From positions 69,179 through 101,229 of the forward strand of contig JAPLXR010000008.1 in assembly GCA_026395955.1 (NCBI GenBank): a DNA stretch of 32,051 bases, given 5' to 3'. Position numbers and translations under genes: made by a program. The DNA is from Candidatus Nomurabacteria bacterium (lineage in GTDB: Bacteria > Patescibacteriota > Minisyncoccia > Phycocordibacterales > UBA9973). Shown in pieces: positions 16,571 through 32,051 of the stretch (positions are counted from its first letter, which is position 1; every line of letters starts with the position of its first letter). The notes under the pieces are model-generated. The model searched no databases. It saw only the letters and a program-made list of their open reading frames with translations, and was not told the DNA's origin.

Positions 16571-17224
16571 TTATGGACTGAACTGACTTTGATTGTACCC
16601 AGGGCAACAATCTTTTTCTTCTTTTTTCGGTTTACCATTATTACCAAAAAGTAAATTAATACCGCACTCAAAACTACATCTAAAATTAGTATTTCGAGTC
16701 GATATGTCTTTCACCGGCATCGGGGTCCAAATACATCCTGGATTCGCAGTAGTGTAAAAATTAAATCTTCCAATTCGAAAATTTAATCCTAACTGAAAGC
16801 TCCCGACCATTTTGTCGGTAATAGCAGAACTGTCTACAATGTTTTCAAACTTAGTTCCATTGTTAGTGTGGAATACTGTTCGATAGTTATATTCAAGACC
16901 ATACTTGAAGTCTAATTCATAACTATTCTTTTGACATTTATTCCCTTCTATAAGCGGAGCTAAACAACCTATTTCAGCACCGACATTTGCTTTGTAAGCA
17001 ACAACAATACCAAAATAAAAATTCCTGTCGAATTTGTAAGTATTTTTGATGTTATTCAAACTTACTCCAAAAACTCCTCCATAATATTCTTCAGAATTAT
17101 ATTTCCAGCCACCATACATATGGGCTGTTTTCGTAAAAAATGGACTTGTAGAACCTTGTCCAACAGAAGGTTTTGTTACAAACATTAAGCCGGTAACTAA
17201 AGCTATTAAAACACATTTTTTCAT
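16571..17224 (-). CDS. Outer-membrane beta-barrel-like secreted protein
   Basis: A 217-residue protein with a clear signal peptide (MKKCVLIALVTGLMFVTKPS, ending near VGQG). The rest alternates aromatic and polar residues in strand-like stretches (AHMYGGWKYNSEEYYGGVFG, NFYFGIVVAYKANVGAEIG, LEYNYRTVFH, VGSFQLGLNFRIGRFNFYTT, CSFECGINLLFG). This resembles small outer-membrane beta-barrels of Bacteroidota. The C-terminus does not end with a classical aromatic barrel residue but with a Cys/Pro tail. Patescibacteria are thought to lack a typical outer membrane, so the gene stands out; transfer from a Bacteroidota host is a plausible inference. Function is unknown. Confidence 0.65.
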   Translation of the reverse strand: MKKCVLIALVTGLMFVTKPSVGQGSTSPFFTKTAHMYGGWKYNSEEYYGGVFGVSLNNIKNTYKFDRNFYFGIVVAYKANVGAEIGCLAPLIEGNKCQKNSYELDFKYGLEYNYRTVFHTNNGTKFENIVDSSAITDKMVGSFQLGLNFRIGRFNFYTTANPGCIWTPMPVKDISTRNTNFRCSFECGINLLFGNNGKPKKEEKDCCPGYNQSQFSP

Positions 17225-28088: not shown

Positions 28089-28094
28089 ATATTT

Positions 28095-28386
28095 ACAGGT
28101 GTCAGACAGTTGCGCTCTACTTTTGTAGAGTGAGGAAAGTCCGAACACACAGTGATTCAATTCACAAATGTAGAGGGTAATTCCCTCCCGTAGCGATACA
28201 GAGTTGCGAACAGAAACGACCCGGTTAAGTCCGGCTGAAACGGCTAAATACTTACACGTGTGCAAGATCGTGCTTTGGCTTCGGCCATTGAGAATCGCTT
28301 GAGCCTCCGAGTAATTTGAGGCCTAGATAGATAACTGTCGATTTCCCTTTTAGGGATTGAACAAAATTCGGCTTATAGGCACCTGT
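28095..28386 (+). ncRNA. rnpB: RNase P RNA (bacterial type)
   Basis: The catalytic RNA that trims the 5' ends of pre-tRNAs. P1 is formed by ACAGGTG (28095-28101) with CACCTGT (28380-28386). The conserved core GAGGAAAGTCCGAACAC follows near 28130, GGGTAATTCCCTCCCG near 28175, ACAGAAACGACC near 28212, the GGCTGAAACGGCTAAA block near 28233, and the signature 3' core AACAAAATTCGGCTTATAGG near 28360. At 292 nt it is compact compared with the roughly 377 nt of E. coli. A terminator follows at once. Confidence 0.96.
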
Positions 28387-28397
28387 ATAAAAATGAG

Positions 28398-28445: not shown

Positions 28446-28480
28446 AAAAATCCCCGACACATTACTGCATCGGGGTTTTA
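28446..28480. terminator. Terminator downstream of the T9SS-tagged gene
   Basis: AATCCCCGA (28449-28457) and TCGGGGTT (28470-28477). The minus-strand T-rich flank serves the 28497-31541 gene. Confidence 0.8.
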
Positions 28481-28496
28481 AAATTATTATTTATTA

Positions 28497-31400
28497 CTAT
28501 TCTTTGATTACCTTTTGGTTTGAAATTCCATCCGAATTTTTCACACGGATAAAATACACACCATTCGCTAAATCACTTCCGAACAAAACAAAGTTTCCAT
28601 CTTTTACATTTTTATATTCTTGAACTGTTTGCCCAAGCATATTTAAAAGATTTACATCATTATTTTGATTTTCCAATACAATAGTAAAATCTGCACTGGA
28701 AGGATTCGGGAAAATTTTTAATTCTTTGCCTTTCTGATATTCTTCAATACCTACAAATACTTGGCTACTAAATGAACCCTGGCAACCATTTGCATCGATT
28801 GCAGTTACAGTATAATTAGTAGAAGTTATGTAGGTCATTGATTGGCCTGTACCTCCTGGATTCCAGTTATAAATATACGGTGCTGTTCCTCCTGTTGCAT
28901 GAGCAACAACAACTCCTCCTCCAACACTTTGTGGAAAAACAGTTGGTGCCTGCAATTGAATAACAATTGGACTTACAGCTGTATTACTACAGCCAGTCGA
29001 TGGATTTGTTACAGTCACTGTATAAGTTCCTGATTGTGTCACATTAGTAACTTGTCCATTTGTGAAGTTGCTCCATGCATAAGTATTACTACTTGATCCA
29101 TTTGCAATTAATTGCAAAGAAGTTCCTTCACAAAATTGTGAATTACCATTTACTGTTATAAAAACAGTTGGTAAAGGATTAGCTGAAACATTTTCACTTG
29201 TTGAAGTTGCTGAGCATCCATTCATTCCTGTTACGGTTACTGTATAAACTCCTGATACCTGTGCATTTAAAATTTGAGAGGTTGATCCGTTGCTCCATAA
29301 ATACGAAGCACCTGGACTAGCCTGTAAATTTACACCCTGACCAGCACAAAAAGTTGTACCACTCAAAGGAGTTATATTTGCAGCAGGTAAAGATTTTACT
29401 GTAACTGAAGTTAAAGTACTTGTTGATGAACATCCATTTGCATCAGTAATAGTTACTCCGTAATTCCCTGTTGTTGTTACAACAATTGAAGGATTTGTGT
29501 CTGTGTTATTCCACAAATAATTATATGGACCACCAGTAGCACTTAAAACTACATTACTATTAGCATATGCACAAAAAATTATTGGACCACCAGCACTAAT
29601 TGTAGGCACTGGAGGCAATGGATTTACAGTAACTGTCATTGATGGAGCAGTATTACTACATCCATTAATAGTAACAACTAATACAACGACATGATTTGCA
29701 TTCACAGTTATCGCTGAAGTTGTTCCAAGTACAGTAGAACCATCGTACCACGCATTACTACCCGTTATTGATGAAGGACTAGTTAAAGTAACAGCTCCAC
29801 CTGAACAGAAACTCGTAGGACCATTAGCTGAAATTACAGCATTAGGTATTCCATTTACAGTTACTATTGTTGATGTTGAAGCAGTGCCTCCACAACTATT
29901 TGTTCCAACCACTGTATAAGTAGTGGTAGTTGTAGGAGAAACAGAAAAATTATTTCCTGTCATAGCTATTCCGTTTAAAGAATAACTGCTTGCTCCATTT
30001 GCAATTAAGGTCGTTGTTTGTCCTAAGCAAATCGAAGGTGAAGCATTACTTACTGTGACTATTGGAATTGATGACACCGTTATGGTGACACTAGCTGTAT
30101 TAGAACTAGTACATGTACCATTTACTGCTTGAACTGTATAAGTCCCAGCAGATGAAACAGCAATAGAATCTAAATTACCTCCAGTAGACCAAACGTAAGA
30201 CGTTCCACCTGAAGCATACAATGTTACAGAACTTCCAGGGCAAATGCTCTGGCTAGGAGTTGTAATACTTACAACAGGTATAGGATTCACCGTCACTGTA
30301 ACTGTACTTGTCCCAGAGCAACCACTTGTCGTACCTGTTACGGTATACGTAGTAGTTGATATTGGATTTACAGAAATAGAATGAGATATTGATCCAGTTG
30401 ACCATAAATAAGTGTTTGCTCCAGTAGCAGTCAATGTTGTTGTTTGTCCAGCACATATAGTGCTATTGCTAACATTTACAGTAGGAGCTCCAGTAACTGT
30501 CACTGTTGTTGTGTGTGAGTTACTACATCCGTTTGCATCAGTCCCAACTACTGTATAAGTAGTGGTAGTTGTAGGAGAAACAGAAAAATTATTTCCTGTC
30601 ATAGCTATTCCGTTTAAAGAATAACTGCTTGCTCCATTTGCGATTAAAGTTACAGTCTGACCAGAACAAATTGTCTGGTTTGAACTAGTAGCAATTACTG
30701 GTAGTTGATTTACAATTACATGAATTGTATCCAAAACATTTGGACAAGTACCAAGTATAATAGAAACTACATAATTGGTACTATAACTTGGAGTAACGTG
30801 TAACGAATCATAATGCGAGCCATTCGGCCAATTATAAGACGTTCCACCTGAAGCATACAATGTTACAGAACTTCCACGACAAATAGTTTGTGTAGGAGAA
30901 ACAGTAACATTAGGAGCAGAATTTACTGTAATGGTTTTTATTGTTGTTCCACTGCATGCATCACTCGTCCCAGTAACGGTATAAGTTGTTGTTGATGCAG
31001 GAGAAACAGTAACACTAGTACCTGTAAAAGGTACCCCATCAAGTAAAAAATTTGTAGCACCACTAGCAGTTAACAAAACAGAACCTCCATTACAAATAGT
31101 TGTAGTGGGGGCTGTTACGTTAATAACAGGTGAAATACAATCTGCAGTAAAATACATTGTGTCACTATTTACTATAATGAAACCTGGATTGAAACCCGAA
31201 GGATATCCAATCAGAATATCAAAATGTAAAGAATAACTGTGACCTGGAGTTGTTGTAAAAATTGCATTAAATACTCCGGCAGTATCCGTTGAGGAAAAAG
31301 AGTTTGGTACTGTTTGTGCTGTTAATGGTTGATTTAAAGTTAAATCCATTCCATTAAAGACAAAAGACATACTCGTATGTCCTGTAGGAACTCCGCCAAA

Positions 31401-31541
31401 AGTAATAGCGGTATTTACTGAATTCGCTGTTACAGCAGGCACAATAGTGTGCGATGTATCAGCGTGACAAAACCAGATTTGTGCTGTGGAGGTCATGAGC
31501 GTGGTCAATAACATTCCGATAACCATAATAACTTTTTTCAT
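28497..31541 (-). CDS. Secreted Ig-like repeat protein with T9SS type A sorting domain
   Basis: A 1014-residue secreted protein. Signal peptide MKKVIMVIGMLLTTLMTSTA; a first domain of about 120 residues; then about ten repeats of 75-90 residues with the pattern (T/S)IC-x-G-x-(T/S)-V-T-L-x-A-x-G-A-x-x-Y-x-(W/L), then TTTYTV-x-(G/A)-x-(N)GC, typical of Bacteroidota adhesin-like proteins. The last 75 residues are a T9SS type A sorting domain: LKIFPNPSSADFTI, LLNMLGQTVQEY, LANGVYFIRVKNSDG, and the basic end QKVIKE. In Bacteroidota this tail sends proteins through the outer membrane and anchors them to the surface. No T9SS machinery is in this window. The gene is visibly less AT-rich than its neighbours. 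Horizontal acquisition is the likeliest explanation. Confidence 0.92.
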   Translation of the reverse strand: MKKVIMVIGMLLTTLMTSTAQIWFCHADTSHTIVPAVTANSVNTAITFGGVPTGHTSMSFVFNGMDLTLNQPLTAQTVPNSFSSTDTAGVFNAIFTTTPGHSYSLHFDILIGYPSGFNPGFIIVNSDTMYFTADCISPVINVTAPTTTICNGGSVLLTASGATNFLLDGVPFTGTSVTVSPASTTTYTVTGTSDACSGTTIKTITVNSAPNVTVSPTQTICRGSSVTLYASGGTSYNWPNGSHYDSLHVTPSYSTNYVVSIILGTCPNVLDTIHVIVNQLPVIATSSNQTICSGQTVTLIANGASSYSLNGIAMTGNNFSVSPTTTTTYTVVGTDANGCSNSHTTTVTVTGAPTVNVSNSTICAGQTTTLTATGANTYLWSTGSISHSISVNPISTTTYTVTGTTSGCSGTSTVTVTVNPIPVVSITTPSQSICPGSSVTLYASGGTSYVWSTGGNLDSIAVSSAGTYTVQAVNGTCTSSNTASVTITVSSIPIVTVSNASPSICLGQTTTLIANGASSYSLNGIAMTGNNFSVSPTTTTTYTVVGTNSCGGTASTSTIVTVNGIPNAVISANGPTSFCSGGAVTLTSPSSITGSNAWYDGSTVLGTTSAITVNANHVVVLVVTINGCSNTAPSMTVTVNPLPPVPTISAGGPIIFCAYANSNVVLSATGGPYNYLWNNTDTNPSIVVTTTGNYGVTITDANGCSSTSTLTSVTVKSLPAANITPLSGTTFCAGQGVNLQASPGASYLWSNGSTSQILNAQVSGVYTVTVTGMNGCSATSTSENVSANPLPTVFITVNGNSQFCEGTSLQLIANGSSSNTYAWSNFTNGQVTNVTQSGTYTVTVTNPSTGCSNTAVSPIVIQLQAPTVFPQSVGGGVVVAHATGGTAPYIYNWNPGGTGQSMTYITSTNYTVTAIDANGCQGSFSSQVFVGIEEYQKGKELKIFPNPSSADFTIVLENQNNDVNLLNMLGQTVQEYKNVKDGNFVLFGSDLANGVYFIRVKNSDGISNQKVIKE
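29911..30002. repeat. 92-bp exact direct repeat, copy 1
   Basis: Identical to 30550-30641, offset 639 bp (213 codons, in frame). It encodes the tail of one Ig-like repeat (NGASSYSLNGIAMTGNNF and the following TTTTYTV segment). Confidence 0.93.
30550..30641. repeat. 92-bp exact direct repeat, copy 2
   Basis: Second identical copy. A further shared stretch of about 40 bp (from GACGTTCCACCTGAAGCATA, near 30199 and 30838) has the same 639-bp offset, so a 213-residue block was probably duplicated. Confidence 0.93.
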
Positions 31542-31670: not shown

Positions 31671-31700
31671 AGTATAGCATACTTGATACCTATTTGTCAA
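31671..31700 (-). promoter_or_regulatory. Promoter of the T9SS-tagged gene
   Basis: On the minus strand -35 TTGACA (31700-31695), 18-nt spacer, extended -10 TGCTATACT (31679-31671). The predicted leader is about 122 nt. The architecture equals that of the 160-aa gene promoter at 12559-12588. Confidence 0.8.
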
Positions 31701-31808: not shown

Positions 31809-32051
31809 ATGAAATTTATGAAAAATATTACAAAAAAATTAATAGCAGTCTTCTCTTTAGTCACAATTTTTAGTTTTGGGGCAAATTTTGCTTTTGCAGC
31901 AGGTCCTATTCTCTCAAACACAGGACCAAGTTCACCAGCTAACACTGTAACTCTAGGTGGAGCATATTCTAATACTACAGGTGGTGCCACAACTACATGG
32001 TTTGATATTGCTACAAGTAATTCAAATCTTGTTTCTGGTAACTCTCAAGTA
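31809..32051 (+). CDS. Secreted surface protein, N-terminal part
   Basis: An open reading frame of 81 codons that leaves the right edge. It starts MKFMKNITKKLIAVFSLVTI, a signal peptide with basic N-terminus and hydrophobic core, probably cleaved after FAFAA. The mature part is rich in Thr, Ser, Asn and Gly (NTGPSSPANTVTLGGAYSNT, TTTWFDIATSNSNLVSGNSQ), like extracellular beta-rich repeat proteins. ATG 31809 or 31818 are both possible starts. It is transcribed divergently from the T9SS-tagged gene. Function is unknown. Confidence 0.75.
   Translation, partial: MKFMKNITKKLIAVFSLVTIFSFGANFAFAAGPILSNTGPSSPANTVTLGGAYSNTTGGATTTWFDIATSNSNLVSGNSQV

Follow-up and report, generated by a model that had tools for sequence, protein, structure and literature searches.

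A type IX secretion sorting tail on an Ig_7-repeat adhesin of a Nomurabacterium, and the possibility that it addresses the protein to a partner cell

What is a sorting signal of the type IX secretion system (T9SS) doing on an adhesin of a bacterium in whose genome no such system could be found? The question is raised by P0001, a gene of a Candidatus Nomurabacteria bacterium (assembly GCA_026395955.1) that lies in a stretch of 32,051 nucleotides, hereafter the window, at the end of contig C9 (JAPLXR010000008.1, positions 69,179 to 101,229). There is hardly any doubt that the gene, its tail and its genomic context are real, and a T9SS-tailed adhesin is not unique to P0001 or to its genome. We tentatively read P0001 as an adhesin addressed to the T9SS of a partner cell, a reading that could well be right though we would stop short of calling it probable. 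The open reading frame has an ATG start and no internal stops, and its parts are laid out as follows.

28497..31541, minus strand: coding sequence P0001, 1014 residues, a secreted Ig_7-repeat adhesin with a type A T9SS sorting tail
31482..31541, minus strand: Sec signal peptide, residues 1-20, ending in TSTA with a Gln directly after the cleavage site (the Q-rule); a heuristic prediction, not SignalP
31122..31481, minus strand: N-terminal domain, residues 21-140, without a Pfam match
28956..31121, minus strand: ten Ig_7-type repeats, about residues 141-862
28752..28955, minus strand: SprB/PKD-like repeat, about residues 863-930, recognised by eye
28506..28715, minus strand: type A T9SS C-terminal sorting domain, residues 943-1012 (PNP, LG, GVYF, KVIKE)

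The original prediction had read a full type A signature off the C-terminus (FPNP, GQTV, LANGVYFIRV and KVIKE), and all four elements are there. Profile searches bear this out: residues 943-1012 match TIGR04183 at 52.3 bits against a cut-off of 23, far over chance, and PF18962 (Por_Secre_tail) at 40.7 bits against a cut-off of 27 (E 2.9e-10). A sequence comparison with the PDB also matched the tail to T9SS sorting domains (8glj, 8glk), and a low-confidence AlphaFold2 model made from the single sequence (pLDDT 55.7) has seven strands. The body matches Ig_7 at 59.5 bits, with Cys-Gly repeat starts at residues 149, 220, 291, 362, 433, 504, 578, 656, 731 and 803; within its DNA, segments of 131 nt (90% identity) and 94 nt (79% identity) are repeated at a spacing of 639 nt, which points to internal duplication. 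Homologues of the N-terminal domain occur in G010 (33% over P0001 residues 1-419) and in G036 (34%), there alone and without a tail. Codon usage in P0001 is that of its neighbours (third-position GC content, GC3, 0.17), which rules out a recent import.

In having a Sec signal peptide, a long body and a motif-bearing C-terminal domain of 70 residues, P0001 resembles type A T9SS cargo such as the gingipains and RemA and ChiA of F. johnsoniae. It differs from them in its host, a Nomurabacterium in which neither a T9SS part nor an outer-membrane assembly protein was found, and in that we know of no reader for its tail. The body recalls the Ig_7-repeat adhesins of Bacteroidota, including the Aureispira grappling hook protein GhpA, and SprB-like proteins, which likewise carry tandem Ig_7 or CHU_C-associated repeats; P0001 matches GhpA (9flp) in a phmmer search at E 3e-61, in the repeats only. 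P0001 is far shorter than these adhesins, however, and belongs to a different type of cell.

Does the gene truly belong to this genome? The assembly (699 kb in 10 contigs, completeness 94.9, contamination 0.23%) was assigned to the Nomurabacteria, within the Patescibacteria, from the relatives of neighbouring genes and from genome size. The RsmE gene of the window has four named relatives, all Candidatus Nomurabacteria and 59-90% identical; the scan used a fused query of P0001 parts and RsmE, and all four matches came from the RsmE part. SecA identity throughout the genus is 74-80%. These results uphold the patescibacterial gene context that had been proposed, and the RsmE relatives and SecA identity rule out that the genome is that of a member of the Bacteroidota. 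The immediate flanks of P0001 hold the following features.

31671..31700, minus strand: promoter-like site TTGACA-N18-TATACT, sigma-70-like, 11 of 12 consensus positions; a consensus match only
28452..28475, minus strand: intrinsic terminator-like hairpin and T-run of P0001; a consensus match only
28094..28391, plus strand: rnpB, the convergent neighbour (RNaseP_bact_a, 113 bits)
31809..32051, plus strand: beginning of a native surface protein, divergent from P0001 and truncated at the contig end

The promoter-like site agrees with the native-looking promoter of the original prediction. Over 74 aa, the 81 residues of the cut surface protein are 43% identical to the product of a gene in another genome (G042, L112:3564-6107) that adjoins an Ig_7 gene in the same arrangement as at the P0001 locus. 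Three TIGR04183 genes were found in the P0001 genome, one on each of three contigs. An assembly chimera is very unlikely given the two further tail genes on other contigs and a right flank that is a native Nomurabacteria surface protein. Elsewhere in the window, 16571-17224 on the minus strand encodes a 217-aa protein that carries a Q-rule signal peptide and looks, by eye, like an outer-membrane beta-barrel. It matches nothing in Pfam or the PDB, and the sole copy in 100 relatives, 88% identical, is that of G036, also the bearer of the lone P0001 N-terminal domain.

P0001 had been described as sorted by a T9SS, and for its own cell this part of the description found no support. Omp85 was not found in any of 19 tail-bearing genomes, the P0001 genome included, in a search whose controls were positive in 7 of 14. 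Nor was SprA_N found in 100 genomes, or Peptidase_C25 (PorU-type) in the 19 tail-bearing genomes; in neither case did a control genome give a match, and the two negatives are no more than strong hints of a likely absence.

Matches above the TIGR04183 cut-off occur in 18 of 100 sampled relatives; 15 of these 18 belong to the 60 sampled genomes of the genus, the P0001 genome included. An even sample of the phylum gave 10 of 380 genomes, two of them in this genus, and outside the genus tails were found in 8 of 377 genomes (about 2%). On a SecA tree, one clade has tails in 9 of 10 rows and another in none of 15 (Fisher 5e-6), in a test that treats related rows as independent and on a tree of modest branch support in which G012, with two SecA genes, makes up two rows. 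These two genes differ and lie on two short contigs (L124, L151), the result of either duplication or a mixed bin. Further afield, G093 (another family, L052-L056) carries ten tail genes, partly in tandem clusters with additional tail-less secreted Q-rule proteins, and G301 (a distant patescibacterial family, L103-L106) has four tails of one flavour.

Within the genus, tail genes recur between orthologous core genes in several species, at four slots whose genes were mostly named by eye from sequence.

Slot I, from ssb/rpsF to EF-P/recA: G000 and G058; G012 on the ssb side only, on a short contig
Slot II, from nusA to pilus/tpiA genes: G003, G007, G022, G028, G033 and G058, some on one side only; also G012
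Slot III, from eno-ppdK-YtxH to an M10-like or Hsp20-like gene: G003, G006, G022 and G028; G007 on the right side only
Slot IV, at murI: G022 and G029

At slots II and III the tails are 47-73% identical and the bodies just 20-42%, a few of the slot II body values being based on fewer than 35 aligned residues; mean identity of the core genes at these loci is about 52-85%. Tail identity had no clear slot dependence (61 vs 60%), by a crude labelling that pooled slots II and III. The region-B glycine, the GxY motif and the first and third residues of PNP are kept in all 46 tails compared, and the Asn of PNP in 45. In P. gingivalis the region-B glycine and the C-terminal motif are needed for T9SS function (PMC11285876); our matching of the glycine to RgpB G699 rests on where it sits in the motif rather than on a structural comparison. 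The tail genes are not stray transfer, and we think it likely that selection retains the tail in the genus.

Relatives that lack a tail gene at slot II have nusA followed there by native surface proteins and/or pilB-pilC-pilin (for example G001, G008, G027, G040, G045, G046, G052 and G054). Beside the slot III tail gene a secreted or membrane protein, by eye like an M10 metalloprotease, is conserved (L035:8588-9550, L039:7667-8632, L046:8493-9440). The murI slot holds, in two species, proteins of 119-120 aa that consist almost entirely of signal peptide and tail (L043:1829-2188, L060:1481-1843) and share 27% identity in the tail.

The other end of the protein carries a second signature. In Bacteroidota most substrates of signal peptidase I expose a Gln (mean 71%), as do 77% in Ignavibacterium album and 24% in Cloacimonas (PMC5837995). 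Among proteins from the same loci, [ASTGP]Q follows the signal peptide in 43 of 48 tail proteins vs 6 of 22 native secreted proteins (p 3e-7), with heuristic cleavage sites and a control set chosen by hand; an automatic scan gave 30 of 42 tail proteins vs 14 of 140. Type II glutaminyl cyclases are members of the M28 family, and this family went undetected in 18 of the 19 tail-bearing genomes, the P0001 genome included, in a search with controls positive in 14 of 14. Retention of the Gln in a cell without the cyclase hints at processing by the pathway of another cell, or at renewal of the genes from such cells.

Tail flavour also differs between species. The tails fall into kinds that we take to be Bacteroidia-like, Ignavibacteria-like (NYPNPFNP...TKKM) and, in G301, Cloacimonadota-like; those of G012 at slot II are Bacteroidia-like. 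Tail pairs with unrelated bodies have an identity of 0.45 within genomes vs 0.33 between them, a difference reached in 0 of 5000 permutations with G093 left out and in 54 of 5000 with G093 and G301 both left out. C-terminal domains (CTDs) are not always exchangeable, some pairs of species being incompatible (PMC11285876), so flavour could reflect the partner.

Two explanations had been offered for the tail: that the gene was taken from a Bacteroidota host and reused as a surface adhesin, or that the tail has a function here such as binding the partner cell. Both still stand, but the comparative evidence (conserved slots, tails better conserved than bodies in two of them, retention of the Q-rule and species-specific flavours) favours a tail that is still functional, most likely towards a T9SS-bearing partner. 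The P0001 host is probably epibiotic. The family would have come from a T9SS-bearing partner lineage, the tail now being kept as an address label. P0001 would reach the partner, where the shuttle and attachment complex of the partner's T9SS (PorV, PorU) would bind the tail and retain the protein on the partner surface or link it thereto; the Ig repeats, possibly with the neighbouring FN3/CARDB surface proteins of the epibiont, would then hold both cells together. The protein might be exported through the epibiont's own Sec and dock from outside, or it might be delivered into the partner cytoplasm and then pass through the partner's Sec, signal peptidase, glutaminyl cyclase and T9SS. The second route would explain why Gln +1 is kept in genomes of which 18 of 19 have no detectable cyclase of the M28 family. 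It is a rather unlikely, if conceivable, extension of this scheme that epibiont adhesins are processed and mounted by the partner as a self-supplied receptor, with the tail a species-matched label exchanged at each change of partner. In enteropathogenic E. coli, Tir serves attachment through intimin as a protein that the bacterium itself supplies to the partner's surface; the parallel is one of function, not homology, and in the case of P0001 the partner's T9SS would do the sorting.

Several observations weigh against a partner-addressed tail. At slot I conservation of the tail (32%) does not exceed that of the body (33%). Agreement of tails within genomes is weak when all genomes are included (330 of 5000 permutations, missing the 5% level), the tails of G093 being mixed; those of G000 are just 27-28% identical among themselves, and G022 has an additional tail of a different flavour. 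Surface proteins with FN3, CARDB or DUF11 domains adjoin tail genes at many loci, but relatives of one of them (fam-1) occur in 54 of the 60 genomes of the genus, tail-less ones too, so a surface protein next to a tail gene is not necessarily its dedicated partner; this spread rules out a strict partnership of tail gene and fam-1 protein by co-occurrence, leaving only their adjacency. Our tail comparisons were made among patescibacterial genomes only, and repeated replacement from partner bacteria would likewise keep both tails and Gln. Finally, we know of no partner cell for the P0001 species, nor of any experiment showing that a T9SS attachment complex takes up a foreign CTD protein supplied from outside.

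The rival that survives best, though we think it unlikely, is that the tail of a borrowed adhesin is used at home: the protein would leave through the cell's own Sec, and its beta-sandwich tail would do no more than bind or anchor it at the surface of the epibiont itself, to the S-layer, a pilus or a surface glycan. That the slots adjoin native surface proteins and pilus genes, that tails are conserved in slots II and III and that no T9SS was found in these cells all sit well with such a role. It leaves unexplained, however, why the Q-rule is kept without a cyclase, why the motifs required by a T9SS are retained and why species with a tail gene at one and the same slot differ in flavour.

Type IV pili are patescibacterial attachment structures (PMC12206443), and the position of slot II between nusA and pilB-pilC-pilin, adjoining giant surface proteins, places the tail genes in like company. 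In the open-licence papers searched we found no description of a foreign sorting tail on patescibacterial pili or giant surface proteins, and no mention of T9SS tails for Nomurabacteria. Native surface proteins that share the ending (K/N)xPxYxE[NDRKQ] also lie beside type IV pilus genes (L036, L040, L048, L050, L037; in the nusA-pilus slot, L152-L170), possibly a signal for anchoring to the pilus or envelope.

Also unlikely, and a little weaker in our view, is recurrent passive transfer, in which partner genes for secreted repeat proteins would be taken up repeatedly, to serve as adhesins or to remain non-functional, with the tail an undecayed passenger. It is favoured by the donor signatures at both ends of the protein, by patchy presence and by three flavours that we take to resemble different phyla of the Fibrobacteres-Chlorobi-Bacteroidetes (FCB) group. 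Yet the same slots are occupied in several species by tails far better conserved than their bodies, carriers cluster on the species tree, and P0001 has native codon usage. We give little credence to the idea that tail proteins are T9SS effectors instead of cargo, with free tails occupying PorV or the translocon and so dampening the partner's surface secretion: the tail-only proteins at murI would suit it, but most tail proteins have large bodies, and the two tail-only proteins have diverged even in the tail. Least credible, to the point of being negligible, is that Bacteroidota sequence was assembled or binned into a patescibacterial genome, since, although the right flank lies only 0.5 kb from the contig end, many species have tail genes flanked by orthologous patescibacterial genes within contigs as long as 336 kb, and contamination is low.

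Little is known of the means by which ultrasmall epibionts recognise their partners and hold on to them, and for almost none of these bacteria is the partner known. Should the tail be an address label, the partner's phylum could be told from tail flavour, by sequence alone, and host specificity would be directly testable with existing Flavobacterium T9SS genetics. If true, this would be a case of one bacterium exploiting the protein-sorting signal of another.
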